Origin: Embleya scabrispora
GTDB lineage: Bacteria; Actinomycetota; Actinomycetes; Streptomycetales; Streptomycetaceae
Assembly (NCBI RefSeq): GCF_002024165.1
Contig: NZ_MWQN01000001.1
Span: 558,001-622,000 of the forward strand
Direction: 5' to 3'
Length of the DNA: 64,000 nt
Below are positions 36,739-55,803 of the stretch, one piece after another; positions within the stretch are counted from its first letter, which is position 1, and each line of letters opens with the position of its first letter. Below the pieces are notes generated by a model, which saw nothing but the letters and a program-made list of their open reading frames with translations, had not been told where the DNA came from and did no database searches. A program made the position numbers and the translations under genes.

Positions 36739-40168
<3,430 letters not shown>

Positions 40169-43172: not shown

Positions 43173-43274
43173 CCCCCCATGCTCGCCCGAACGTCGCCCG
43201 ACGCGGCGCAGCCACACGCTCTCCCGGCGGATTCCTTTGCCTTCGGCCGAATACGTACGGACAATGTGCGGCAG

Positions 43275-43293
43275 TACCTACCTGTCGGTAAGG
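43275..43293. promoter_or_regulatory. Candidate HxlR operator
   Basis: TACCTACCTGTCGGTAAGG, with TACC-N4-GGTA at its centre (43279-43290), lies 25-43 bp upstream of hxlR, in the promoter region shared with the divergent yjbQ gene. HxlR/DUF24 proteins recognise such short AT/GC palindromes; this is inferred. Confidence 0.4.
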
Positions 43294-43317
43294 CAGTGTC
43301 CGAGGAGGGGGAGGCGC

Positions 43318-43686
43318 ATGGCCCGGCGCTACCAGTGCGGTCTCGATGCCGCCATGGACGTCATCGGTGGCAAGTGGAAGGCGCTGATCCTGTGGGCGCT
43401 GCACACCGAGGATCGGCGGTTCGGGGAGTTGCGGCGCGCGGTGCCCGGGATCAGCGAGAAGATGCTGATCCAGCAGTTGCGCGAGATGGAGAGTCGGGGC
43501 ATCGTGCACCGCGAGGTGTATCGGGAGGTCCCGCCGAAGGTGGTCTACTCGCTGACCCCGCTGGGCGAGTCGCTGAACGAGGCGCTGTTGCCGCTGGGCG
43601 TGTGGGGCCGGGACCACGAGGAGCAGATCGCCGCCACCGCGCCCTCGACGACCGCGACCCCGGACCCCGCGCGGCCCGCCGCCTAG
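43318..43686 (+). CDS. HxlR-family (DUF24) transcriptional regulator
   Basis: 122 residues, winged helix with the HxlR signature: CGLDAAMDVIGGKWKALILW, FGELRRAVPGISEKMLIQQL and VPPKVVYSLTPLG. The single Cys7 near the N-terminus is the redox- or electrophile-sensing residue of many DUF24 regulators. ATG 43318 has GAGGAGGGGGAGG. It is the first gene before the cyclitol cluster, in the same direction (190 bp before the cyclase), and is a candidate cluster regulator. Confidence 0.9.
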   Translation: MARRYQCGLDAAMDVIGGKWKALILWALHTEDRRFGELRRAVPGISEKMLIQQLREMESRGIVHREVYREVPPKVVYSLTPLGESLNEALLPLGVWGRDHEEQIAATAPSTTATPDPARPAA

Positions 43687-43785
43687 AGGTCGTTTCCGGG
43701 CGAAGTTTCCGGAATCGGCGAATGCCCGGGAATAGCGTCGAACGGTCTGCTATACCCGCGCGGGCGCACTCTGGGTGAGTCGTTG

Positions 43786-43815
43786 TTGACTTTTCGTAGC
43801 ACCCGCCGTAATTAT
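43786..43815 (+). promoter_or_regulatory. Promoter of the cyclase/kinase operon
   Basis: TTGACT (43786-43791), an 18-bp spacer and AATTAT (43810-43815) form a good housekeeping-sigma promoter in a locally AT-rich 190-bp gap. It lies 61 bp upstream of the cyclase start. Confidence 0.6.
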
Positions 43816-43876
43816 TTCGGCAGCGAATATCCGGATTGTCTGCGACGTCTTCGTTGAGCTGCCGGGGTGTGAATAT

Positions 43877-45067
43877 ATGACCGAATACGTCCGAGTGTCC
43901 GAACAGCTGGCGCTGCCTCGCGGCCGGGTCGAACCGATCATGGCCACCGCTCGGCGGCTCGACACATATCCGGTCCATGTCTGCCTCGACGAGAACACCG
44001 CGCTCGCGCACCTGTGCGCCGAGATCGACGGTCGCCGGGTCGCGCTGGTCACCGACGACACCGTGCTCGCGCTGCACGCACGCCGCCTGGCCGAACGCCT
44101 GACCGCCGCGGGACTCGACGTGGTCGCCACCTCCTTCCCGGCCGGCGAGGCCAGCAAGAGCCTGCGCACCGCGAGCGCACTGCTCGACTGGCTGGCCGAA
44201 ACCTCGCTGGTACGCCGGGACATCCTGCTCGCGGTCGGCGGCGGCGTGGTGATGGACACCGTCGGCTGGGTGGCCAGCGCGTACATGCGCGGACTGCCGT
44301 ACATCAACGTGCCCACCACGCTGCTCGCGCACGTGGACGCGGCCCTGGGCGGCAAGGTGGCCATCGACCACCCGTCCGCGAAGAACCTGATCGGCGCCTT
44401 CTACCAACCCCGCGCGGTGGTCTCCAACGTCGGCTATCTGAGCACCCAGGACGATCGTGGACTGCGCGCCGGACTGGCCGAGGCGATCAAGACCGGGATC
44501 ATCGCCTCGCCCGAGTTGTTCGAGCTGATCGAGCACCGGCACGCGGCCGTACTGGCCGCCGACCCCGGGCCCACCGCCGCCCTGGTACACGCCTCCAGCG
44601 TGCTCAAGTGCCGCCTGATCGCCCGCGATCCGTACGAGCGGGACCTGCGCCGGCCGCTGAACTTCGGGCACACCATCGGACACGCCGTGGAGACCGCGAC
44701 CGGCTACGGCCCGGTCCTGCACGGCGAGGCGGTCGCCTTCGGGATGGCCTGCGCGGCGCGCATCGCCGCACGCCGCGGGTTGCTCGACCCGACCCTGCTC
44801 GCCCGGGTGACCGGACTCCTGGACCGGGTGCGGCTGCCCACCACGCTCGCCGCGCTGCCCGCCCCGCTCGATCCGGCGACCACCGTCGAAGCCCTGGGGC
44901 AGATCCGCAAGATCCGGGACGGCCGACTGCGCTTCGTGCTGCCCACCGCACTCGGCGAGACGGTGATCACCGACGACGTCACCGACGAGGAGATCCACGC
45001 CGCGCTCGTGGTCTCCGCCGAATCCGAGGCCACCTTGGCGCGCACCCACGGAGGAACCGATGGCTGA
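43877..45067 (+). CDS. Sugar-phosphate cyclase, DHQS superfamily (2-epi-5-epi-valiolone/valiolone synthase-like)
   Basis: 396 residues. NAD-binding GGGVVMD (121-127), probable zinc ligands Glu202 (LAEAIK), His265 (NFGHTIGHA) and His282 (LHGEA), and catalytic Lys160. The superfamily cyclises heptulosonate or sedoheptulose 7-phosphate. The substrate loop reads GGKVAID (158-164) instead of the GGKTGIN of dehydroquinate synthases, while AKNLIGAFYQP (168-178) is DHQS-like. Context with a pseudoglycosyltransferase favours a C7-cyclitol synthase acting on sedoheptulose 7-phosphate. It overlaps the PfkB gene by 8 bp. Confidence 0.8.
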   Translation: MTEYVRVSEQLALPRGRVEPIMATARRLDTYPVHVCLDENTALAHLCAEIDGRRVALVTDDTVLALHARRLAERLTAAGLDVVATSFPAGEASKSLRTASALLDWLAETSLVRRDILLAVGGGVVMDTVGWVASAYMRGLPYINVPTTLLAHVDAALGGKVAIDHPSAKNLIGAFYQPRAVVSNVGYLSTQDDRGLRAGLAEAIKTGIIASPELFELIEHRHAAVLAADPGPTAALVHASSVLKCRLIARDPYERDLRRPLNFGHTIGHAVETATGYGPVLHGEAVAFGMACAARIAARRGLLDPTLLARVTGLLDRVRLPTTLAALPAPLDPATTVEALGQIRKIRDGRLRFVLPTALGETVITDDVTDEEIHAALVVSAESEATLARTHGGTDG

Positions 45068-45962
45068 ACCCGCCGGGCTGGATGTGTTCGTGGTCGGCGG
45101 GGTGGGTGTGGACATCATCGTACGGGTACCCGAACTCCCCTTGCCGATAAGCGACTTCAAGGTGCCGCCGATCCGCAGTTATGTCGCGCACACCGGCAAC
45201 GGGGTGGCCTTGGGCTGTCGGGCGTTGGGGCTGCGCACACATCTCGCCGCCGTGCTCGGGGACGACCCGGAGGCGGACTTCGTGCTCGCGCACTACGCGC
45301 GGCACGGCCTGTCCTTCGCGCATGCCACCGACCGGGCCGGCACTCCGCGCAGTGTGAACCTGGTCGGCCCGGACGGCGAACGACTCTCGCTGCACGACAG
45401 TCGGTTGCCGAAAGACCTGGTGGTCGACCCCGATCTGTATCGCCCCGCGCTGGCCCGGACCCGGCACGCGCACGTGTCGATCGGCGGCTGGTCGCGGGCC
45501 GCGCTGGCGGAGGCGGTCGAGGCGGGTGTGTCCACCTCGACCGACCTGCACGGCTGGGACGGGAAGGACCCCGGCCGGGCCGACTTCGCCTACGGGGCCG
45601 AACTGGTGTTCACCTCCACCAACCGGCTCGGCGACCGGGTCGAGGAGGCCGCGCGGGACCTGCTCGCCCGGGGCCGGGCCAAGATCGTGGTCGCGATGGC
45701 GGGTGGTCGGGGCAGCTATCTGGTGGTGCCGGATCGGCCGCTGTGGCACGTACCGGCGCTGGCCATGCGAGCCGACGAGGTGGTGGACACCAACGGGGCC
45801 GGGGACAGCTACGTCTCCGGCTTCCTGTACGCCTACCTCGCCGGCCGCGACTGGGCCGGCTGCGCGGCGGCGGGCACCCACGCGGGGGCGCACGCGGTCC
45901 GCACGGCCGGTACGCACACGTCGTTCATCACGGCGGAAGAGCTGGATCGTGCGGTGTCCTGA
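45060..45962 (+). CDS. PfkB-family kinase, probable cyclitol kinase
   Basis: 300 residues, ribokinase fold. VVGGVGVDIIVRVPELP at the start and the anion-hole signature DTNGAGDSYVSGF (243-255) with catalytic Asp249. It is coupled to the cyclase by an 8-bp overlap, so it probably phosphorylates the C7 cyclitol, a step done by a ROK-type kinase (ValC) in validamycin biosynthesis. The 3' end overlaps the convergent nucleotidyltransferase gene by 35 bp. Confidence 0.85.
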   Translation: MAEPAGLDVFVVGGVGVDIIVRVPELPLPISDFKVPPIRSYVAHTGNGVALGCRALGLRTHLAAVLGDDPEADFVLAHYARHGLSFAHATDRAGTPRSVNLVGPDGERLSLHDSRLPKDLVVDPDLYRPALARTRHAHVSIGGWSRAALAEAVEAGVSTSTDLHGWDGKDPGRADFAYGAELVFTSTNRLGDRVEEAARDLLARGRAKIVVAMAGGRGSYLVVPDRPLWHVPALAMRADEVVDTNGAGDSYVSGFLYAYLAGRDWAGCAAAGTHAGAHAVRTAGTHTSFITAEELDRAVS

Positions 45963-47100
45963 CCGGCTCGGAGGGCGGCTCGGGACGGGCGGGCGCCGTG
46001 CCGGCTCCGGGTGGCGTCGTGCCCCCGGGCGGGGTCGGCGTCAGGATCCCGCTCGGGGTGACGATGGCATCGCGGACCGTACTGCCGGCGGCGACCGTGG
46101 CGCCCGGCAACACCACCGAACGCAGTACGGTCGCGCCCGGTTCGAGGGAACAGCCCGGGTGGAGCACACTGCCCTCGACCCGCGTCCCCGGTGGTGTGCC
46201 GATGCCGAGCAGACTGCCGTCGGCGTACCGGGGAAACCCCTCCCCCAGGCCCGCGAGGGTGCGCGGCAGCAGTTCGGCGGGGATCGGATGCGGCCGGTCG
46301 AGCAGCCGCAACTGCTCGTCCCGGTAACGCTCGACGGTGCCGATGTCGGCCCAGTGGTCGGCCACCCGATACGCCGTCACCCGGTCGCCCCGGGCGATCA
46401 TCGCGGGCAGTACGTCGCGGCTGATGTCGTGTTGCCAGCCTGCCTCGCCGCGTCCGGCCAGCGTCGCCAACACCTCGCGCAGCGCGGCGATCCGGAACAC
46501 GCAGAACGCGGTGAACACCAGGTCGGAGGTCGGCCGCGCGGGCTTTTCGACCAGGGCCCGGACCCGGCCGTCGGGATCGGCCTCGACCATGCCGAACAGG
46601 TGCACCCAGCGGCGCTCGATGCGCTGTACGCCGATCGTGCAGTCGGCGTCGGCGGCACGATGCGCGGCGAGCATCGGCGCGTAGTCGAACACGTAGACGT
46701 GGTCCGCGTGTTGGATCAGCAGATCGCGCGCACCCGGCGCGAACAGGTATTCCGCGTTGGCCAACAGCGCGTCGGCGGTGCCGCGTTCGGCGGGCCGGGC
46801 GGGCAGGATCGCGCCGGGGCCGGATCGGGCCAGGGTGTCGTGCGGGCCGAAGTGCAGCCGGGTCCCCGGGGATTCGTCCCAGTGCGCGATCAGGTGCCGA
46901 ACCAGGTCGGACTCGCGGTGCTGGGAGAGCAGGACCAGCTCGGGCAGGCCGGAGCGGACCGCGTTGGCCACGCTGAAGTCGACCAGGCGGCAGCTCGCGG
47001 CGTACGGGACGAGCGGTTTGCAGACGGTCGCGGTGAGCGGGCCCATGCGCTCGCCCAGGCCGCCCGCGAGCAGGCCGCCGCGTACTCCGTCGAGCGTCAC
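45928..47100 (-). CDS. Nucleotidyltransferase, GlgC/ValB-like
   Basis: 390 residues. N-terminal nucleotidyltransferase fold with LAGGLGERMGPLTATVCKPLVP (pyrophosphorylase signature, residues 11-32, Lys28 region), and EKP for sugar phosphate binding. The C-terminal left-handed beta-helix (PGTRVEGSVLHPGCSLEPGA) resembles ADP-glucose pyrophosphorylase. In validamycin the homologue ValB makes the GDP-valienol donor for the pseudoglycosyltransferase. Start GTG 47100 overlaps the TIM-barrel stop (GTGA). Confidence 0.85.
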   Translation of the reverse strand: MTLDGVRGGLLAGGLGERMGPLTATVCKPLVPYAASCRLVDFSVANAVRSGLPELVLLSQHRESDLVRHLIAHWDESPGTRLHFGPHDTLARSGPGAILPARPAERGTADALLANAEYLFAPGARDLLIQHADHVYVFDYAPMLAAHRAADADCTIGVQRIERRWVHLFGMVEADPDGRVRALVEKPARPTSDLVFTAFCVFRIAALREVLATLAGRGEAGWQHDISRDVLPAMIARGDRVTAYRVADHWADIGTVERYRDEQLRLLDRPHPIPAELLPRTLAGLGEGFPRYADGSLLGIGTPPGTRVEGSVLHPGCSLEPGATVLRSVVLPGATVAAGSTVRDAIVTPSGILTPTPPGGTTPPGAGTAPARPEPPSEPVRTPHDPALPP

Positions 47101-48131
47101 CAGGTCCGCCCCGGGGCGACGCCGGCGGGGATCAGCGCGCGCAGCAGCGTCAGCGAATTGGCGAGGCCCTGCTCCGTCGGCAGTAGGGCGTCCTCGTGTT
47201 CCACGTAGATCACTCCCCGGTAGTCGTCGTCGAGCAGCGCGGCCACGATGGCCGGCCAGGGCAGGGCACCGGCGCCGAGGGCGCGGAACCGGATCGCCGG
47301 GCCCGGACCGTAGCGCGACCAGCCCGCGCCGCGCGGCGGTTCGGTGTCGGACCAGCGCTGGAGGTCCTTGGCGTGCACGGCGGCCAGTCGCCGGCCCCAG
47401 CCGCGAACGCAGGCCACCGGGTCGTATCCGATGGCGGCGAGGTTGGCGGGGTCCACGCACAGGTGCACCCCGCTCGCGCCGGAGAGCAGCGCCCGGGTGC
47501 TGGCCGGGTCGTACGCGACCTGCTTGGGATGCGGCTCGATCACCACGCGTACGCCCAGCGTGTCCGCCAACTCCAGCACCGGGCGCGCGGCGTGCACCCA
47601 CGCGTCCACGTTGTCCTGCCAACTCACCTCGCTGCCCGACCAGGACAACCAGCGGGCCAGATCGGGCACGCCCAGCATCAGCCGCACCAGCGGCGCGCCC
47701 ACCCCGGCGGCGAACCGCACCGTCCCGAGCGCGGCGCGCACCCCGAACGCCCGCTTGGCCTCGGCGCTGCCGGCCAACACCGCGTCGGTATGCGGCCCGT
47801 GCGGGCCCAGCACGAGTTGGGTGTCCCGGCTGTTGCTCACACACCCGATCGCGACGCCGGCGGCGGCACACCGCTCCCGCACGTCGCGCTGATGGCGCGG
47901 ATCCTCGAGGCGGGCCGCGTCCACCAGCGCGAAGCCACGATCGACCGGCAGGTCGACCACGCCCACGCCGACGTCCCGGGCCACCGCCAACGCCCCCGCC
48001 AGTCCGAACGGCGCCAGCGCGGCAAGGCAGATCCCGAGCCGAATGGGCCCGGCACCGGGGGCGGCTCGGGCCGGGGGCGGGGCGGGTGGGGCGGGGTTCT
48101 GGTCCTCGGCTCCGGTGGGGCTTCGGGTCAT
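47097..48131 (-). CDS. Xylose-isomerase-like TIM-barrel protein
   Basis: 344 residues; AP endonuclease 2/IolE-IolI fold. Likely metal ligands are Glu and His residues in VVIEPHPKQVAYDP, HLCVDPAN, VHAKDLQRW and IYVEHED. This family includes inosose epimerases, keto-sugar isomerases and 2-keto-myo-inositol isomerases. In this cluster it is a good candidate for the cyclitol epimerase step that ValD (a VOC protein) does in validamycin; that is inference. ATG 48131 follows GAGGGGGA. It is 35 bp after the kinase gene and coupled to the nucleotidyltransferase. Confidence 0.83.
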   Translation of the reverse strand: MTRSPTGAEDQNPAPPAPPPARAAPGAGPIRLGICLAALAPFGLAGALAVARDVGVGVVDLPVDRGFALVDAARLEDPRHQRDVRERCAAAGVAIGCVSNSRDTQLVLGPHGPHTDAVLAGSAEAKRAFGVRAALGTVRFAAGVGAPLVRLMLGVPDLARWLSWSGSEVSWQDNVDAWVHAARPVLELADTLGVRVVIEPHPKQVAYDPASTRALLSGASGVHLCVDPANLAAIGYDPVACVRGWGRRLAAVHAKDLQRWSDTEPPRGAGWSRYGPGPAIRFRALGAGALPWPAIVAALLDDDYRGVIYVEHEDALLPTEQGLANSLTLLRALIPAGVAPGRTW

Positions 48132-48166
48132 CGGCGGTCCCCCTCGTTCGGTTGCGGCTCGCTTCC

Positions 48167-49080
48167 TCACAGGTGGCGGATGTGTGCCCAACCCTTGGGC
48201 GGTGAACCCTCGTTCGCCCGCAGGGCGGCGTACACCGCGTCCACCGGATCGGCGATCACGGTCGGCGACGCGGCCGCGCCGAGTTCGGTGACGACGCGCC
48301 GGCTCAGCTCGGCCGCGTACGGCGGACACCCCCGGAACACACCGCCGTTGAGCACGACATGCCAGGTGCCGCTCAGGCCCGCCGCGTCCCGGGCCGCGCG
48401 GACCCCGTCGATCAGATCGTCGAGGCCGGCCCGCACCACCTCGCCCGCCACCGCGTCGCCCGCCTGCCACGCCGCGCACACCTCGGGCGCCAACGCGGCC
48501 ACCGCGCTCTTGGGAAACGGCTCCGCGGCCAGCCGGCGGGCCAGTTCGCGCGGCCCCCGGGCGGCGAACAGCGTGGTCGGCCGCCCGCGCCCGTCCGCAC
48601 CGCGTACGGCGGCCCGCAATCCGGCCGCGCCGAGCGCGTACGCGCTGCCCTCGTCGCTGCCCAGGTACTCGCAGCCCCCGATCACCACCGGCGGCCCCGC
48701 GTCCGGCCCGGAACCCGCCACGCAGGCCGACCCGGTCCCGGCCACCACGACCACCCCCGCCCGGCCGTCGGCGGCGCGAGCAGCAGCGGCGGTACGTCCC
48801 CGGAGACCACCAGCCGCCCCGCCAGGCCGTGTTCGCGCGCCAGCACCGCCAATCGATCGATCTCCGCCGGCACGGTGTCCATGGTGATCGCGGCGCTCGC
48901 GAACCAGCCCAGCGCGGGCGCCCCGGCCAGGTCCGCGGCGATCTCGGCCAGCAACCGCGCCAACGTCGCCTCGGCCGCCGCGCCCGCCGACGCGGGATTC
49001 ACCGACCCCCGGGTGTACCGCGTGTCGCCCACCCTGGCCGTGGTCCGCGTGCCGCCGGCGTCGATCGCCCAGTACTCCAC
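48167..49080 (-). pseudogene. BadF/BadG-type ATPase (N-acetylglucosamine-kinase-like), frameshifted
   Basis: The N-terminal half from GTG 49080 (YWAIDAGGTRTTARVGDTRY, up to VVSGDVPPLLLA) and the C-terminal half (VVVVAGTGSACVAGSGPDAG, GSDEGSAYALG, HVVLNGGVF) lie in different frames. They join cleanly if one base is added near 48768-48782, where GCG CCG CCG should read GCG GCC GCC. Both halves are otherwise intact ASKHA kinase. It is therefore a fresh single-base deletion or a sequencing error, in the middle of the cyclitol cluster; it would be the second kinase (a 1-kinase). Confidence 0.8.
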
Positions 49081-49213
49081 CGTCGAAAGCCTCCGCAGTC
49101 CGTCGAAATCGCCCGCCGCCGGTCACGCTATCGGTGCCGAGGGCCGGCTCGGGGTAGTGGTGGGAAGATACGGTGGGCGACACTCTCGGTCACCTGGAAT
49201 GGACGGAGTGTGC

Positions 49214-50536
49214 ATGCGAAACGGCGGCGGTGTGCTCGGTCTGCTTGCCCCGGCGACGAGTTGGGGGCTGTTCTGGGGTGGTTGGGCCGCGCTGCTGCCC
49301 ACCCTTCAGGACGAACTCGGGTTGGACGACGGGAAACTCGGTCTGGCGCTGTTCGCGGTCCCGGTCGCGGCGGTCCCCGCGATGTTGCTGACCGGGCCGC
49401 TCGCGCGGCGGCTCGGCCCGCGTACGTTGCCCCTGGTCACCCTCGGGTTCGCGCTCGGCACGCTCGCCGTCGCGGTGGCCGGGTCGCGCTGGACGTTCGC
49501 CGCCGCGCTGTTGCTGATCGGCGCGACCAGCGGGGCGATCGAGGTGGCGCTCAACGCCACCACCGCCGCGCGCGAGGCGCTGACCGGTGAGCGGCTGTTC
49601 CATCGGGTCCAGGCGGCCACCCCGCTCGCGATGGTCCTGGCCGCCCCGGCGGTCGGTCTCGCGCTGCACGCGGGGGTGTCGGCGCGGGCGATCCTGGTGA
49701 CCATCGCCGTACTGGTCGCGCTGAGCGCGGCGGCGGCGATCGACCGCCGGCGCTGGCAGGAGGAGGCCGCCGAACCCGGATCGGCGCGCGCCGAGCGGGC
49801 GAACGGCCGTCTCCTGATCGCCCTTTCGGTGGTCGGCGCGGTCGGCGGCACGGTGCTGCTGATGGAGAACACCGTCGAGCAGTGGGGTGCGATCCACCTC
49901 ACCGACAACCTCCACACCGGTCCGTTCCTCGCCTCGTGCGGCCCGGCGGTCTACATGGCGGGCCTGTCCGCCGGCCGACTGCTCGCCCAGTGGCGCGGCG
50001 AACGGGTCGGCGACGCCCCGCTGATCCTCGGCGGCGGCGCGCTCGGCGGCCTGGGCCTGGCGCTCGCGGCGGCGGCCTGGTCCACCCCGACCACGCTCGC
50101 CGGCTTCGCGCTCGCGGGCGTCGGGTTGGCGCCGGTGTTGCCCACGCTGCTCGCCGCGACCGGTCGCGCGGTCGCCCCGAGCCTTCGCCCGCAGGCGATC
50201 TCGCTCGTCACCACCGTGTCCTACGCCGGATTCCTCGGCGCCCCGCCGCTGGTCGGCACCCTGGCCGGCCGGCTGGGTCTGGGCACGGTCCTCGGCGTCG
50301 TGGCGCTGTGCGGGGTGGTGGTGATGGTGGGCGCGCGGTCGTTGCGGCTGCTGCCCGCGGAGGCCGGCCCGGGCACGTGCGACCCGGACGGCGCTTCCGA
50401 CGATCCGGGCGGTTCCGGTGGCTCCGGTGGCTCCGGTGGCTCCGGTGGCTCCGGCGAAGGTGACCGCGCCGAGGGTGTTCGTTCCGACCCACCGCACCAC
50501 CCACGACCGTCGCGTCGGAAGGGAGTCGCCCGATGA
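49214..50536 (+). CDS. MFS exporter of the cyclitol cluster
   Basis: 440 residues, about 12 membrane helices, of the small MFS subfamily seen in metabolite export (SWGLFWGGWAALLPTLQDEL, TLLAATGRAVAPSL). Its likely role is export of the cluster product. ATG 49214 has GGAG five bases upstream. The C-terminal tail after TM12 holds five tandem GGS units (DNA 9-mer repeat 50411-50455) and a basic end. It overlaps the epimerase gene by 4 bp (ATGA). Confidence 0.85.
   Translation: MRNGGGVLGLLAPATSWGLFWGGWAALLPTLQDELGLDDGKLGLALFAVPVAAVPAMLLTGPLARRLGPRTLPLVTLGFALGTLAVAVAGSRWTFAAALLLIGATSGAIEVALNATTAAREALTGERLFHRVQAATPLAMVLAAPAVGLALHAGVSARAILVTIAVLVALSAAAAIDRRRWQEEAAEPGSARAERANGRLLIALSVVGAVGGTVLLMENTVEQWGAIHLTDNLHTGPFLASCGPAVYMAGLSAGRLLAQWRGERVGDAPLILGGGALGGLGLALAAAAWSTPTTLAGFALAGVGLAPVLPTLLAATGRAVAPSLRPQAISLVTTVSYAGFLGAPPLVGTLAGRLGLGTVLGVVALCGVVVMVGARSLRLLPAEAGPGTCDPDGASDDPGGSGGSGGSGGSGGSGEGDRAEGVRSDPPHHPRPSRRKGVAR
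50411..50455. repeat. (GGYTCCGGY)5 tandem nonamer, encodes GGS linker
   Basis: Five 9-bp units within the 3' end of the MFS gene. They encode a (GGS)5 flexible linker at the C-terminus. Copy number could vary in frame. Confidence 0.9.
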
Positions 50537-51600
50537 CCCGGGTCCTGCTGTTCGGATCGGGGTACATAGCCGGCCACGTCGGCACCCGGTTGACCCGCCT
50601 CGGTCACGGCGTCGTGCTCGGTTCGCGCCGGCGCCCCCGCACCCCGGAGACCCGGGGGCTGCGCTGGCTTCCGGTGGACGTGGCCGATCCGCGCGAGGTG
50701 CGCACGGTGGTCGACGCGGTCCGTCCCGACGCCGTGGTGGCCGCGCACGGGCCCTCGGACATCACCCGGTGCGAGGCCGATCCGGCGGGCGCGGCCGCCG
50801 TGCACGTCGCCGGTGCCCGCCACGTGGTGGCGGCGCTGGCCGGGCGGCCCGCGCGGATGGTGTTGATCTCCACGGACAACGTCTTCCCGGGCCACGCGGA
50901 CAGTTGCGCCGAGTCCGCGCCGACCTCGCCCGCCAACGCCTACGGGCGGGCCAAGCTCGCCGCCGAGGCCGCCTACCTGTCCGGCGGTGACGCGCTCGTG
51001 TTGCGGGTCAGCCTGGTGTACGGCTGGGACCGGGCCGGGCTGCGGCCGAACTTCTTCACCACGTGCGCCGAACGGCTCGGCGCGGGCGCGCCCGTGGCGG
51101 TGCCGGACGGGCACTGGAACACCCCGGTGCTGGTCGACGACGTCGCGGCCTGGACCGCCGCCCTGCTCGACTCGCCGCACACGGGCGTGGTGCATCTGGG
51201 CGGGCCGCGGCGGTTGTCCCGGGTGCAGTGGGCCCGGCACATCGCGGCGGTGCACGGCGTGGACCCGGCGCTGGTGACCGCCGTGCCACAGCGGGACACC
51301 GGGTACGCGTGCCGCCCGCGCAACGCGTGCCTGCACAGCGAACGTGCCGCGCACCTGCCCGAATTGCGCGGCCTGGATCCGGTGGACGTGTTCGCGGCCG
51401 ACGCCGCGCTGATCGCCACCGCGGTCGGGCCGACGGGCTCGATCGGGTCCTGCGGCCTGCCCGGTTCGACCGCCGACCCGAACACCCTCGCGCCGCCGCG
51501 CGCCACCCTCGACACCTCGGCCGACCTCGATGCCTCGGCCGCTCTCGACGCTTCAGCCGCTCTCGACGCTTCAGCCGTTCTCGGAAGGGACCAGCCCTGA
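50533..51600 (+). CDS. RmlD-like SDR (NAD(P)-dependent reductase/epimerase)
   Basis: 355 residues, extended SDR. The dinucleotide motif is GSGYIAGH (8-15), with a STDNVF strand and catalytic Tyr137 and Lys141 (YGRAK). Closest in pattern to dTDP-4-dehydrorhamnose reductase/NAD epimerases. In the cluster it could reduce a cyclitol ketone. The last 30 residues are four 6-residue LDASA-type repeats followed by a short tail. The start ATG overlaps the MFS stop and its TGA overlaps the next ATG by one base. Confidence 0.83.
   Translation: MTRVLLFGSGYIAGHVGTRLTRLGHGVVLGSRRRPRTPETRGLRWLPVDVADPREVRTVVDAVRPDAVVAAHGPSDITRCEADPAGAAAVHVAGARHVVAALAGRPARMVLISTDNVFPGHADSCAESAPTSPANAYGRAKLAAEAAYLSGGDALVLRVSLVYGWDRAGLRPNFFTTCAERLGAGAPVAVPDGHWNTPVLVDDVAAWTAALLDSPHTGVVHLGGPRRLSRVQWARHIAAVHGVDPALVTAVPQRDTGYACRPRNACLHSERAAHLPELRGLDPVDVFAADAALIATAVGPTGSIGSCGLPGSTADPNTLAPPRATLDTSADLDASAALDASAALDASAVLGRDQP
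51505..51576. repeat. 18-bp x 4 tandem repeat in the SDR 3' end
   Basis: Four 18-bp units, the last two identical (GCTCTCGACGCTTCAGCC), encode TLDTSA-DLDASA-ALDASA-ALDASA at the C-terminus of the SDR. An in-frame expansion that would not disturb the fold. Confidence 0.9.
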
Positions 51601-53036
51601 TGGACCGTCATCTGTTCCTAGCCAGCAAGCGTGCCGCAGTCAGCTTCGCCCCCGATCCGGTGACCGGCGCGCTGCGTCCCTGGCTCGCGCCCGGCGGCAC
51701 CGGAAACGTGGTCGCCGAACAGGCGGGTGTGCTCGACGTGACCTGGATCGCCAGCGCGGACACCGACGACGATCATCGAGCGGCCCGGGAGAACCCGAAC
51801 GGTCTGAGTCTGCGCCTGCGTTCGGGCCGCGACATCCGGGTCCGGCTGCTGCGGCACGACCGGGAGACCTTCGACGTCGTGCAGAACTTCATGACCGCGC
51901 AGCTGATGTGGGCCGCGAACAACTACGGCTGGGACCGGTGGACCACGCCGACCTTCGGCGCCGAGACCTACACCGCCCTGGAGCGATTCACCGAGTTCAC
52001 CGAGGACTTCGCCGGTGCCCTGCTCGCCGACTCGGCCGACGTCGCCGATCCGGTGTACCTGGTGCACGACTACCAACTCGTCGGCGTACCGGCTCGATTG
52101 CGTGCGGTGCGGGCGACCGCGCCGATCCTGCTGTTCGTGCACATCCCCTGGCCCTCGCCCGACTACTGGCGGATCCTGCCCCGGGCACTGCGGGTGGGCC
52201 TGCTCGAAGGCATGTTGCCGGCGACCACGATCGGCTTCTTCGCCGAGCGGTGGTGCCGCAACTTCCTGGACTGCGTGGCGGATCTGATACCCGACGCCGA
52301 CGTGGACCGCAACGCGGGGGTGATCCGGTGGCGCGGCCGGCGCACGGGGGTGCGCACCATGCCGCTCGGCTACAGCCCGCGCGCGCTCGACGCGGACCAT
52401 CCCCGCCTGCCGGCGGGGATCGCCGAGTGGGCGGGCGACGCGCCCCTGGTGGTGCACAGCGGCCGGACCGACCCGATGAAGAACGCCGAACGCGCCGTCC
52501 GGGCCTTCGTGTCCGCCCATCGCCGGGATCCCCGGGTGCGGTCCTCCCGCATGCTGGTCCGGATGAATCCGAACCGGCTCTACGTCGAGGCGAACGCCGA
52601 CTACGTCCGGCGGGTGGAGTACACGATCGCCGAGGCGAACGCCGAACTGGGCCCCGACACCGTGCGGTTGCACTGCGACAACGAGGTCGAGCACACCATC
52701 GGCTGCTTCCGCCGAGCCGACGTGCTGATCTTCAACTCGACGGTGGACGGCCAGAATCTGAGCACCTTCGAGGCTCCACTGGTCAACGAGCGCGACGCGG
52801 ACGTGATTCTGTCCGAGATGTGCGGCGCGGCGGAGATCCTGGCCCCGGTCTGCCGCACGATCAACCCGTTCGACCTGGTGGAGCAGGCCGACGCGCTGAT
52901 CGCCGCGCTGACCGCGTCCTCCGCCGAACGGGCGGCGGCGGCCGAGCGGCGGCGCAAGGTGGCCGAGCCGTGGACGCTGGAGGCGTGGGTCCGCACCCAA
53001 CTGGAGCGGCTCGACGCGGATCACCGCGATGACTGA
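51600..53036 (+). CDS. GT20 pseudoglycosyltransferase, VldE/ValL-like
   Basis: 478 residues, GT-B fold of the trehalose-6-phosphate synthase family. Motifs are HDYQLVGVPARLR (156-168), LFVHIPWPSPDYWR (178-191), MLPATTIGFFAERWCRNF (205-222), HSGRTDPMKNAERAV (286-300), VRMNPNRLYV (320-329) and FNSTVDGQNLSTFEAPLVNE (378-397). These, together with the overall length, closely follow validoxylamine A 7'-phosphate synthase (VldE/ValL), which joins an NDP-cyclitol to an aminocyclitol phosphate through a C-N bond. This is the key enzyme of the cluster. Confidence 0.92.
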   Translation: MDRHLFLASKRAAVSFAPDPVTGALRPWLAPGGTGNVVAEQAGVLDVTWIASADTDDDHRAARENPNGLSLRLRSGRDIRVRLLRHDRETFDVVQNFMTAQLMWAANNYGWDRWTTPTFGAETYTALERFTEFTEDFAGALLADSADVADPVYLVHDYQLVGVPARLRAVRATAPILLFVHIPWPSPDYWRILPRALRVGLLEGMLPATTIGFFAERWCRNFLDCVADLIPDADVDRNAGVIRWRGRRTGVRTMPLGYSPRALDADHPRLPAGIAEWAGDAPLVVHSGRTDPMKNAERAVRAFVSAHRRDPRVRSSRMLVRMNPNRLYVEANADYVRRVEYTIAEANAELGPDTVRLHCDNEVEHTIGCFRRADVLIFNSTVDGQNLSTFEAPLVNERDADVILSEMCGAAEILAPVCRTINPFDLVEQADALIAALTASSAERAAAAERRRKVAEPWTLEAWVRTQLERLDADHRDD

Positions 53037-54375
53037 GTCGGCCGAGGAGCGCGCCGCCGCGACCGTCGGGGTCGCGCAATACCGGCTGGGCGACGCGCAG
53101 TTGGTACGCGGCGAGGGGATCCGCTCGTGGGACGCGAGCGGCCGGGAATACCTGGACTGCGTGTCCGGGACGTTCAATCTGATCCTCGGCCACCACCATC
53201 CCGAGGTGATGGCCGCCGTCCGGGCCCAGACCGAGGAACTGGTCTTCGCCTCTTCGTCGTTCCGCACCGAGTCGACCGACCGCCTGATGCGCGACCTGGT
53301 CGCTCTGGCCCCGCCGGGCCTGACCCGGGTGAACCTGCGCAGCAGCGGCGGCTCGACCGCCAACGAGGGTGCGATCCGGATCGCCCAGCACCACACCGGC
53401 CGGCGCGACGTGATCGTGCCGTTCCGGGGCCACGTCGGCCAGACCATCGCCGCCGCCGCGTACAACGGCAGCAGTCGTATGCGGGCGCCGTTCCACATGC
53501 CGCCGCTCGGCGCGGTACACGTGCCCGACGCCTACTGCTTCCGCTGCTTCTACCGGCAGACCCCGGACAGTTGCGGCATGTTGTGCGTGAGCCGGATCGA
53601 GGATTTCATCACGTACGCCAGTTCGGGCAGCGTGGCGTGTGTCCTGATCGAGCCGATCAGCGGAATGGGCGGCAACATCGTGCCGCCGCCGGGTTATTTC
53701 CCGGCCCTGCGGGCCCTGTGCGACGAGCACGGAATCGTGTTGATCTTCGACGAGATCCAGACCGCGTTCGGCCGCACGGGACAGATGTTCGCGGCCGATC
53801 TGTTCGGCGTGGTGCCGCACATGATGACCGTCTCGAAGGGGCTGACCGGCAGCGGACTGCCGCTCGCGGCGATCCTGACCGAGGAGCGCATGGCCGACTG
53901 GGACCGCTCGCTGCACGGCTTCACCTACGGCGGCCACAACCTGGCCGCCGCGGCGGCGGTCAAGACGCTGGAGATCGTCCGGCGGCCGGGCTTCCTGGAG
54001 AACGTACGCCGGACCGGCGCGATCCTGACCGAGCGGCTGGGGGCTCTGCGGCGGGAGCACCCGATGCTCGGCGACGTGCGTGGGCCCGGGCTGATGCTCG
54101 GCCTCGAACTGGTGCGCCCGGACGGGGGCAAGGCTCCGGAGCTCGCGCACGCGTTCCAGCGCGCGCTGCACGCACGGGGTGTACTGACCCGGGTCTCCGA
54201 GCACGGGCTCGGCAATGTCATCGAACTGCGTCCGCCGCTGATCCTGACCCCGGCGGAGGCGCATCTGATCGCCGACCGGTTCGGCGAGGCGCTGGCGGTG
54301 GTGGCCGCCGAAGCGGTCGGGCGCACCACACACGCGCCCCGAGTCGGCACCGCTCGCCCGGATCGGGCGGGATGA
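53029..54375 (+). CDS. Class III aminotransferase, ValM-like
   Basis: 448 residues, fold type I PLP enzyme. GSTANEGAIRIAQ, LIEPISGMGGNIVPP, IFDEIQTAFGRTGQMFA and the PLP lysine 270 in VSKGLTG are all present. It should install the amine on the cyclitol ketone, as ValM does in validamycin. It overlaps the pseudoglycosyltransferase gene by 8 bp. An insertion at about 160-185 (CFRCFYRQTPDSCGMLC) has four cysteines, an unusual cluster. Confidence 0.9.
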   Translation: MTESAEERAAATVGVAQYRLGDAQLVRGEGIRSWDASGREYLDCVSGTFNLILGHHHPEVMAAVRAQTEELVFASSSFRTESTDRLMRDLVALAPPGLTRVNLRSSGGSTANEGAIRIAQHHTGRRDVIVPFRGHVGQTIAAAAYNGSSRMRAPFHMPPLGAVHVPDAYCFRCFYRQTPDSCGMLCVSRIEDFITYASSGSVACVLIEPISGMGGNIVPPPGYFPALRALCDEHGIVLIFDEIQTAFGRTGQMFAADLFGVVPHMMTVSKGLTGSGLPLAAILTEERMADWDRSLHGFTYGGHNLAAAAAVKTLEIVRRPGFLENVRRTGAILTERLGALRREHPMLGDVRGPGLMLGLELVRPDGGKAPELAHAFQRALHARGVLTRVSEHGLGNVIELRPPLILTPAEAHLIADRFGEALAVVAAEAVGRTTHAPRVGTARPDRAG

Positions 54376-55382
54376 GGGTCGAGTTGGGCCCGCACGGCCC
54401 GCACCTGCGGCTCGGCCGACCGCACCCGCCGAAGGGCGAACACCGGGTGCGGATCCGGGTGGAGTTGGCCGGCCTGTGCCGCTCCGACCTGAAGGAGGTG
54501 GCCCGCGAGCGGCACGGTCCCAGTCAGTTCGGCCACGAACTGGTCGGCGTGGTCGCCGAGTCCACTTTGCCCGAGGCGCTGCCGGTCGGTGCCCGGGTGG
54601 CCCTCGATCCCAATGTGCCGCTCGCGCGCACCAGCGGCTTCGCGACCGAGATGTACGCGGCCGGCCCGGCCGACCGGCTGACCGCCGCGCTGCCCCGGAT
54701 TCCGGCCGAACTCTCCGACCGGCAGGCGGTCTTCGCCGAACCGCTGGCCTGCGCCGAACACTGCGTCGCGGCCCTGGTCGGGCACACCGGCGTCCCGCTG
54801 CTCGGTCGGCGCGTGGTGGTGTTCGGCGCGGGCGCGGCCGGTCTGTGGATCGCCCGCCTCGCCGAACTCGCGGGGGCCGAGGTCACGTTGGCCAATCGCA
54901 GCACCGACCGCACCGAGTTCCTGCGGGCGCGCGGCTTCGAGGTACGACCGACCGTGGGCCTGCCGGCATCGGCCTTCGCGGTCGCCGTGATCGCGACCAG
55001 CTTCGTGCGCCCGGAGATTCTGGCCGAGGCTCTGCGCACGCTCGTCCCAGACGGGCTGGCCCTGCTCTACGGCGGCACCGCCCCGGGGGACCGGCTCCCG
55101 GACCTGGCCTGCGATCTGGACCGGGTCCGGCGTCGCGAGCAGGCGGTGCGCACCACCTGGGCCGGTCGGCCGGTCACCGTGGCCGGCAGCTACGGCACCG
55201 GTCGCGCCGACTTCGCCGCCGCGCTGGCGGTGTTGCCGAAGCTGCCCGTGGAGCGCCTGGTGACCGCGGAGATCACGCTCGCCGAACTCCCGGCCGTACT
55301 GCGCGCACAGGTGAGCGGTCGGCCGCTGGGCAAGACACTGATCCGACCGCGAGCCGCGACCGCCTCGATGAACGCCACGTAG
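54372..55382 (+). CDS. Medium-chain dehydrogenase/reductase, ValN-like
   Basis: 336 residues, MDR fold. Catalytic zinc ligands Cys36 and His55-Glu56 (FGHELVGV) and NADP-binding FGAGAAGLW are seen. The four-cysteine structural zinc loop of alcohol dehydrogenases is missing. In validamycin biosynthesis ValN reduces valienone 7-phosphate to validone 7-phosphate; this protein is the candidate equivalent. It overlaps the aminotransferase gene by 4 bp (ATGA), the last gene of the plus-strand operon. Confidence 0.85.
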   Translation: MRVELGPHGPHLRLGRPHPPKGEHRVRIRVELAGLCRSDLKEVARERHGPSQFGHELVGVVAESTLPEALPVGARVALDPNVPLARTSGFATEMYAAGPADRLTAALPRIPAELSDRQAVFAEPLACAEHCVAALVGHTGVPLLGRRVVVFGAGAAGLWIARLAELAGAEVTLANRSTDRTEFLRARGFEVRPTVGLPASAFAVAVIATSFVRPEILAEALRTLVPDGLALLYGGTAPGDRLPDLACDLDRVRRREQAVRTTWAGRPVTVAGSYGTGRADFAAALAVLPKLPVERLVTAEITLAELPAVLRAQVSGRPLGKTLIRPRAATASMNAT

Positions 55383-55392
55383 GATCCCGGAC

Positions 55393-55803
55393 ATGACGAT
55401 CCTCTTGGGGAATTCCGCCCGCAAGCTGCTCGACGCCGCACACCCGGCCGTACTGGCCACCGTGAACCGGGACGGCAGCCCGCAGACCTCGGTGGTGTGG
55501 GTGGGTCGCGACGGCAACGACATCCTGATCTCCACCCAGGCCGGCCGGCTCAAGGACCGCAACCTGCGCCGCGACCCGCGCGCGAGCCTGACCATCTACG
55601 ATCCCGCCGACTTAGACGTCTACGTCGAGATACGCGGCACCACCACGATCACCGAGGACATCGGCCGCCGACTCGCGGTCGAACTGGCCGAAAAGTACGA
55701 GGGCCCCGGCGCCGGCACCGAATACCTCAACCTCCCACCGGAGTCGATCCGCGTAATCATACGCCTGACCCCAACCCGAATCACCGGCACCGCAACCAAC
55801 TGA
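55393..55803 (+). CDS. PPOX-class FMN/F420-dependent protein
   Basis: 136 residues, split-barrel fold typical of F420- or FMN-binding actinobacterial oxidoreductases (LLDAAHPAVLATVNRDGSPQ, VGRDGNDILIST, LKDRNLRRDPRASLTIYDP). Leu74 is encoded by TTA (55612-55614), the rare codon that makes translation depend on bldA tRNA in streptomycetes. It starts 10 bp after the reductase gene and may be co-transcribed with the cyclitol operon. Confidence 0.85.
   Translation: MTILLGNSARKLLDAAHPAVLATVNRDGSPQTSVVWVGRDGNDILISTQAGRLKDRNLRRDPRASLTIYDPADLDVYVEIRGTTTITEDIGRRLAVELAEKYEGPGAGTEYLNLPPESIRVIIRLTPTRITGTATN

Follow-up and report, generated by a model that had tools for sequence, protein, structure and literature searches.

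The 64,000-nucleotide stretch of Embleya scabrispora DNA analysed here (contig NZ_MWQN01000001.1, positions 558,001 to 622,000; hereafter the window) contains, within 43.2-55.8 kb, ten co-localised genes, from a sugar-phosphate cyclase to a reductase of the medium-chain dehydrogenase/reductase (MDR) family, that probably form a pseudosugar cluster of the 2-epi-valiolone synthase (EVS) type, with validoxylamine A or its 7'-phosphate, a trehalase inhibitor, as the predicted product. The initial annotation of this DNA proposed a C7N-aminocyclitol gene set with an N-linked pseudodisaccharide as its expected product, both of which are retained, and an early route of the validamycin type, which is not. 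Every gene that it named is present at the locus as an open reading frame (ORF) or Pfam match; it omitted the major facilitator superfamily (MFS) gene, and the BadF kinase is not one open frame. The ten genes are as follows.

43877-45067, forward strand: sugar-phosphate cyclase of the DHQ_synthase family, predicted 2-epi-valiolone synthase (EVS-type).
45060-45962, forward strand: PfkB-family kinase of the AcbK/Mak1 type, predicted self-protection 7-kinase (best PDB matches Mak1 and AcbK).
45928-47100, reverse strand: GlgC-like nucleotidyltransferase, predicted valienol-1-phosphate guanylyltransferase (PF00483, 115 bits; 47% identity to ValB of the validamycin-type locus L025).
47097-48131, reverse strand: xylose-isomerase-like TIM barrel, predicted to epimerise 2-epi-valiolone at C2 or, alternatively, to dehydrate it (PF01261, 92 bits).
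48167-49080, reverse strand: BadF/NagK-like kinase, predicted to phosphorylate a cyclitol at C7 in the role of ValC, with a frameshift in the assembly (C-terminal piece PF01869, 48 bits).
About 49214-50536 (start codon uncertain), forward strand: MFS transporter, predicted exporter (PF07690, 77 bits).
50533-51600, forward strand: RmlD-like short-chain dehydrogenase/reductase (SDR), ValK homologue (PF04321, 125 bits; 62% identity to the SDR of L025).
51600-53036, forward strand: glycosyltransferase family 20 (GT20) pseudoglycosyltransferase of the VldE/ValL type (70% identity to VldE).
53029-54375, forward strand: class III aminotransferase, ValM homologue (PF00202, 278 bits; 71% identity to L025).
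54372-55382, forward strand: MDR-family reductase, ValN homologue (PF08240, 35.5 bits; 52% identity to L025).

Co-directional neighbours overlap by 1, 4, 4, 4, 8 and 8 bp, as the initial annotation had described for the genes (1-8 bp), and the convergent PfkB and nucleotidyltransferase genes share 35 bp at their 3' ends. Relatives of the cluster were collected by a pattern-based scan of 84,980 GTDB genomes for stretches with either of two peptide patterns, which gives a lower bound, and the ORFs of the relatives' loci were called by a codon-usage score of our own, with no standard gene finder. The scan yielded at least 26 loci: 14 of a group A that resembles the window (Embleya, Streptomyces, Kitasatospora, Streptantibioticus, Streptacidiphilus, Allokutzneria and two metagenome-assembled genomes), 11 of a group B (Actinosynnema, Saccharothrix, Umezawaea, Actinoallomurus and Actinomadura) and one of the validamycin type (L025). 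The SDR and GT20 genes co-occur in all 26 other loci, and the nucleotidyltransferase and the aminotransferase are each present in 23 of the 26, the misses being loci cut by contig ends; in comparison with Embleya hyalina, third-position differences exceed those at first and second positions together in 8/8 ORFs measured, though only narrowly in the SDR gene. Because of this co-occurrence across loci and the excess of third-position differences, the gene set is not a chance assembly; nor can the cluster be treated as an oddity, since its family occurs in at least 25 other genomes. A search of 394 Streptomycetaceae genomes found a GT20 match (E ≤ 1e-60) in 13, one of them at just 45% identity. 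The MFS protein has a counterpart of 94% identity in E. hyalina and of 52-58% identity in six of the 11 group B loci. The features that are the window cluster's own are the AcbK-type kinase and the encoding of the BadF kinase and the TIM barrel as separate genes; in group B these two form one open frame of 621-820 residues in nine of 11 loci, the other two being cut by contig ends, and the fusion loci are L012, L017, L018, L019, L021-L024, L026 and L104.

Two further observations concern the relatives. In one Streptacidiphilus locus (sp. 4-A2; L028, also G073) the GT20, SDR and MFS genes are in fragments, through decay of the cluster or an assembly error. A 500-residue protein, by eye a glucose-methanol-choline (GMC)-type oxidoreductase, is encoded near the cluster in L006, L007, L012 and L017, and a 284-residue protein, by eye a flavoprotein of the luciferase-like monooxygenase (LLM) class, in L006, L007, L009 and L012; both are possible tailoring enzymes. 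Among the matches listed in a literature search on validamycin, validoxylamine, trehalase inhibitors and aminocyclitols, none shows a mention of Embleya.

The cyclase is predicted to be a 2-epi-valiolone synthase, neither a 2-epi-5-epi-valiolone synthase (EEVS) nor the housekeeping 3-dehydroquinate (DHQ) synthase AroB. Among proteins of solved structure it matches DHQ synthases best (227 bits, against 161 bits for ValA, 4p53), and it is 34% identical to ValA of L025 (tblastn). In a tree obtained by a quick search, for which the program warned of long branches meeting, the cyclases of the window and of the 25 relatives' clusters form one clade (support of 95 in the Shimodaira-Hasegawa-like approximate likelihood ratio test, SH-aLRT), apart from 16 AroB proteins, and ValA stands by itself on a long branch. 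Members of the clade share K244 (26/26) and R258 (25/26) with AroB, where ValA has M and Q, and carry T128 and I343-R344 in 26 of 26 cases, where AroB has L and D-K in 16 of 16. A clade of confirmed EVS enzymes would be taken for DHQ synthases, according to an excerpt of PMC5133447. A ValA-like function of the cyclase in the EEVS route is not supported, given the low identity to ValA and the separate placement in the tree. A role as housekeeping or spare DHQ synthase was considered and rejected: the protein does not fall in the AroB clade, and an AroB-like enzyme is encoded elsewhere in the genome. The initial annotation would have been refuted if the cyclase were the only DHQ synthase of the genome; a second one is encoded at C1:744050, placed among the AroB proteins. 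Each of the six group A genomes that were searched likewise has a cluster-type cyclase of 70-85% identity and a separate AroB-like one of 33-38%. Across 396 genomes of the phylum, the matches listed included no cyclase above 46% identity, the window itself aside.

An EVS was reportedly found in Actinosynnema mirum, in a 2012 JACS paper, and a genome that is putatively A. mirum (G800) has a corresponding cluster at 2.206-2.220 Mb, consisting of a cyclase, a fused kinase-barrel, a nucleotidyltransferase, an MFS transporter, an SDR, a GT20 protein, an aminotransferase, an MDR reductase and a ValO-like phosphatase of the haloacid dehalogenase (HAD) family. The window's proteins are identical to those of G800 at 55% (cyclase), 64% (nucleotidyltransferase), 66% (GT20) and 69% (aminotransferase) of positions. 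The cluster cyclases of G800 and L026, the latter a member of the window's clade, are 98% identical; G800 and a second genome (G791) each have four cyclase-family matches (E ≤ 1e-40), one of which is a 98% relative of the Actinosynnema pretiosum cluster cyclase. From its gene position and the putative identity of the genome, the G800 cluster cyclase is likely the EVS of A. mirum. The title of Asamizu 2013 announces an 'alternative biosynthetic pathway to pseudosugars' in A. mirum, and an excerpt of PMC7570522 lists validoxylamine A as an Actinosynnema product, citing that paper. Set against this EVS-type gene complement, the window has the cyclase of the same clade and both the TIM barrel and the BadF kinase, as separate genes with the kinase frameshifted, and, at the search cut-offs given below, no match to the ValO-like HAD gene.

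The GT20 protein is, judged by its sequence, a pseudoglycosyltransferase of the VldE type, as the initial annotation had it. It is 70% identical to VldE, and in a sequence search of the PDB the VldE/ValL entries score 735-740 bits, against at most 131 bits for any trehalose-phosphate synthase. At 19 active-site positions taken from excerpts of PMC3441724 and PMC3288074, its residue is in every case (19/19) that of the VldE/ValL-type protein of L025, including the guanine residues R321, N323 and T366 and the donor and acceptor residues D158, N325, R326 and D383, among others; an OtsA-like protein of the same genome (L043) differs at Q96, R321, N323, N325 and other positions. The host genome encodes two other GT20 proteins, and in the GT20 tree the window protein groups with VldE, apart from both, so that a grouping with OtsA, which the initial annotation had named as a refuting outcome, is not what was found. 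An ordinary OtsA was ruled out by these PDB scores, by the tree placement and by the OtsA model NCBIfam TIGR02400, for which the protein scores 110.4 bits, below the cut-off of 564.85. Its homologues in E. hyalina and in another E. scabrispora locus are 98% and 90% identical to it.

The BadF kinase lies in two pieces in different frames in this assembly. A BLASTN alignment of the region with E. hyalina (L003) spans 925 columns with one 1-bp gap, the pieces are in a single open frame in 24 of the 25 relatives compared (two of the 24 cut by contig ends), and the frame is open in both named Embleya loci. It is inferred to have the role of ValC, the cyclitol 7-kinase, and the PfkB protein a role in self-protection, because group B clusters manage with the BadF kinase alone. 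The best PDB matches of the PfkB protein are Mak1 (6wb4, 260 bits) and AcbK (6wb7, 201 bits), the next chain scoring 55 bits; Mak1 inactivates acarbose (PMC9053282), and excerpts of PMC9200736 describe AcbK as the acarbose 7-kinase and ValC as ROK-like. The PfkB protein is a kinase of the AcbK/Mak1 family, probably with a role in self-protection. The replacement of ValC by the PfkB kinase, as initially proposed, was dropped on the strength of the AcbK/Mak1 match, the BadF kinase being the better replacement.

The distribution of the PfkB kinase was compared with that of the HAD phosphatase, whose L025 member is inferred from gene position and family to be ValO. PfkB relatives of at least 58% identity occur in 13 of the 14 group A genomes searched, among which three (G068, G086 and G101) were assigned by a GT20 match of 75-80% with the kinase within 7 kb. 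The best matches in four group B genomes are 54% on another contig, 36%, 34% and none; tblastn did not find the kinase in the 11 group B loci, and the match in the validamycin genome is 47% identical and on another contig. All four of the group B genomes have a ValO-like HAD protein of at least 56% identity, as do the validamycin genome and two Allokutzneria, and 9 of 11 Streptomycetaceae group A genomes have no match (E ≤ 1e-15), the other two having matches of 43-46%. Neither the window, searched with the L025 protein (E ≤ 1e-6), nor the genome, searched with the L026 protein (E ≤ 1e-15), has such a match; a generic HAD gene near 28.5-29.1 kb of the window is only 29% identical to a relative's phosphatase.

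The TIM barrel has residues E199, D227, H253 and E313, presumably the metal ligands of this fold, that are invariant in 21 of 21 aligned homologues. Its AlphaFold model has a pLDDT of 85, and the nearest folds are SCO6571 (2zds), a 2-hydroxy-3-keto-glucal hydratase (8ro4), the isomerase Art22 and psicose/tagatose 3-epimerases. By elimination the barrel is predicted to carry out the C2 epimerisation required after EVS, with dehydration as the alternative, and the kinase-barrel fusion of group B points to the C2 epimerase of the EVS route. On this reading EVS, the BadF kinase and the TIM barrel would take the places of ValA, ValC and ValD.

In the proposed pathway, sedoheptulose 7-phosphate would be cyclised to 2-epi-valiolone by the cyclase, epimerised at C2 to valiolone by the TIM-barrel enzyme and phosphorylated at C7 by the BadF kinase; loss of water would then give valienone 7-phosphate, where the pathway would join the validamycin route. 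The SDR would reduce valienone 7-phosphate to valienol 7-phosphate, a housekeeping phosphoglucomutase would bring phosphate to C1, and the GlgC-like enzyme would form GDP-valienol, which PgmA and ValB yield in vitro (PMC12041759). The MDR reductase and the aminotransferase would supply validamine 7-phosphate, and the GT20 enzyme would couple it to GDP-valienol by a C-N bond with retention; the product may be exported by the MFS protein. The PfkB kinase is predicted to phosphorylate the valienyl C7-hydroxyl of the finished inhibitor inside the cell and so protect the producer's trehalose metabolism, standing in the Streptomycetaceae branch in place of the ValO-like phosphatase of other branches. 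With its 7-kinase frameshifted, or else misread, this strain may have a silent pathway or one that depends on the PfkB kinase. Validoxylamine-type trehalase inhibitors underlie the crop fungicide validamycin, and the family adds 25 loci where the C-N coupling is the same but is supplied by another early pathway, together with a candidate self-resistance kinase.

Several findings weigh against this assignment. In the cyclase tree group A is weakly supported (SH-aLRT 24), and the cyclase passes the cut-off of the AroB model (323.9 against 305). G800 has three further cyclase-family genes, so that the equation of its cluster cyclase with EVS is likely and not certain, and the 55% and 64% identities of cyclase and nucleotidyltransferase to those of G800 leave room for another stereochemical outcome. 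The nearest folds of the TIM barrel include a hydratase beside the epimerases, the BadF reading frame is interrupted in this assembly, and ValL is not strict in its coupling, since it also joins GDP-valienol to valienol 7-phosphate through a C-O bond (PMC12041759). The exchange of kinase for phosphatase is imperfect: the two Allokutzneria have both, one metagenome-assembled genome (L013) is without the PfkB kinase, and two Streptomycetaceae genomes have the 43-46% phosphatase match. The genome has one trehalase-family match in Pfam, which is marginal (22.2 bits, cut-off 21), so that a need for self-protection is only presumed.

Of the competing explanations, decay of the cluster in this strain, with the 7-kinase frameshift real and nothing made, is unlikely, and is compatible with an EVS-type validoxylamine cluster in the relatives. 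The differing BadF frames and the 1-bp gap relative to E. hyalina speak for it; the other ORFs are open with third-position differences predominating, a discrepancy of one base in GC-rich DNA could stem from the sequencing, and the kinase is open in the named Embleya loci. A different end product after the same early and middle steps, such as an epimer of validoxylamine, an analogue bridged by oxygen or a pseudodisaccharide built on a different acceptor, which the cell might store or export in phosphorylated form, is rather improbable. The frequent absence of a ValO-like match and the wide presence of the AcbK-like kinase in group A would suit such a product, as would the distinctness of the cyclase branch from group B and the formation of a C-O bond by ValL (PMC12041759); the identity of the GT20 protein with the VldE-type residue at every active-site position, and the presence of an aminotransferase and a reductase to provide an amino acceptor, argue for the nitrogen-linked compound.

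A reduced validamycin cluster proper, with the cyclase as an EEVS and the barrel and PfkB kinase standing in for ValD and ValC, would explain the 52-71% identity that the late genes share with the validamycin-type locus, and is improbable: the cyclase has little identity to ValA, lies apart from its long branch in the tree and differs from it at K244 and R258, and the PfkB protein resembles AcbK and Mak1, not a ROK-like kinase as ValC is described in the excerpt of PMC9200736, and had no tblastn match among the 11 group B loci. Very improbable is a part in trehalose or glucosylglycerol-type metabolism, with an ordinary OtsA and a spare DHQ synthase. Pfam and NCBIfam name the two proteins in that way, and the cyclase passes the AroB cut-off; the GT20 protein, at 110 bits, is far from the OtsA cut-off of 565 and has the guanine-specific residues, and the genome contains two other GT20 proteins and another DHQ synthase. 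An EVS-type cluster for validoxylamine A or its 7'-phosphate is the preferred reading.

Trees of the late genes bear on the origin of the validamycin cluster. They include 9-14 group A and 11 group B sequences, depending on the gene; loci without a called ORF are absent and the fragmented L028 was left out. The validamycin SDR, GT20 protein, aminotransferase and MDR reductase (L025, L094) nest inside group A beside L027 and L014, and trees in which group A excludes validamycin are rejected by the approximately unbiased (AU) test with p values of 0.046 (SDR), 0.0004 (GT20), 0.0002 (aminotransferase) and 6e-6 (MDR), of which the SDR value is marginal; the clades tested here and for the nucleotidyltransferase were chosen once the first trees were known. 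The validamycin nucleotidyltransferase behaves otherwise: its joining with L027 is rejected (p = 1.9e-71), as is its joining with L027 and L014 (p = 1.65e-6), and its nearest relative is an enzyme of a genome designated G385, at 70% identity. Relatives of the validamycin kinase and epimerase were not found in the 25 other loci (E ≤ 1e-6). Because ValK, ValL, ValM and ValN nest in group A and ValB does not, the validamycin cluster seems to be chimeric, with different histories for valKLMN and valABCD. The direction of change, with validamycin derived, is suggested by parsimony and by the GT20 tree, the only one to be rooted, with G385 and OtsA.

A tentative scenario, a little short of even likelihood, is that the EVS type is the older and commoner GT20 validoxylamine route of actinomycetes, and that validamycin arose from an EVS cluster of the Streptomycetaceae branch that lost its arm of EVS, epimerase, kinase and nucleotidyltransferase, gained valABCD from an EEVS cluster like that of G385, and kept valKLMN, the same branch having swapped the end phosphatase for an AcbK-type self-protection kinase, which would leave the inhibitor phosphorylated whether it is retained or exported. 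No title on a chimeric origin was among the matches listed in a literature search on validamycin cluster evolution that covered titles and the starts of abstracts. The trees make the origin of validamycin testable as two arms and suggest which early and late modules nature found exchangeable.

The G385 genome is of interest apart from this scenario. Its cluster (L092 and L095; G385:C1:528741-546076) is a separate one of the EEVS type, with a cyclase 53% identical to ValA, a nucleotidyltransferase 70% identical to ValB, ROK-like (31-36% to ValC) and AcbK-like kinases, and trehalose-phosphatase-like and TreT-like genes; its GT20 protein is 45% identical to that of the window, keeps R321, N323 and T366, and carries P12 and H325. 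In a blastp search (E ≤ 1e-6) aimed at the class III aminotransferase family alone, none of the ORFs called at 505-560 kb of G385 gave a match. The cluster may be the transaminase-less intermediate that was expected, and not found, in PMC12041759.

Two further genes flank the cluster.

43237-43686, forward strand: HxlR-type regulator, candidate cluster regulator (PF01638, 110 bits; the start may be 43318).
55393-55803, forward strand: small protein, by eye only of the PPOX-type flavin/F420-like kind, 10 bp 3' of the MDR gene and probably outside the core.

The HxlR-type gene has an equal position 5' of the cyclase in the E. hyalina and E. scabrispora loci, and the small protein has a homologue only in the two other Embleya loci among the 26 loci compared. 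Elsewhere in the window, positions 36739-39063 on the reverse strand encode a large, terpene cyclase-like protein of two domains, by eye a geosmin synthase. Searches of the 64-kb window for tRNA genes and Rfam families gave no matches.

Among known systems, the validamycin cluster of Streptomyces hygroscopicus (represented here by L025) resembles the window in its late genes, with homologues of ValK, ValL, ValM and ValN (52-71% identity) in the same order and a ValB-like protein of 47% identity, and differs in its early genes: tblastn with L025 queries (E ≤ 1e-6) found no match in the window to ValC, ValD, ValG or ValO, which bears out the absence of ValD, ValG and the phosphatase stated in the initial annotation, and ValA is only 34% identical to the cyclase. 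VldE and ValL (3t5t, 3vdm and 4f97) share 70% identity and, at the positions drawn from the excerpted structural papers, all 19 active-site residues with the window's GT20 protein, which differs in lying outside the validamycin sub-branch, nearest to other Embleya enzymes. The kinases AcbK (6wb7, 201 bits) and Mak1 (6wb4, 260 bits) align over nearly the full length of the window's PfkB protein, which differs from them in lying in a cluster of the validoxylamine type, not of the acarbose type. The acarbose pseudoglycosyltransferase AcbS is not known to be a GT20 enzyme. The acarbose cluster, as described in excerpts of PMC9200736, has like the window several cyclitol kinases including AcbK, a GlgC-like nucleotidyltransferase and a pseudoglycosyltransferase, and differs in that AcbS is homologous to the glycosyltransferase AcbI and has 4-amino-DGG as its substrate. 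The putative A. mirum pseudosugar cluster of G800 differs from that of the window in the fusion of kinase and barrel, a ValO-like HAD gene nearby, another gene order and a region in which no AcbK-type kinase was matched, and corresponds to it in the cyclase clade, nucleotidyltransferase, BadF kinase, TIM barrel, SDR, GT20 protein, aminotransferase, MDR reductase and MFS transporter.

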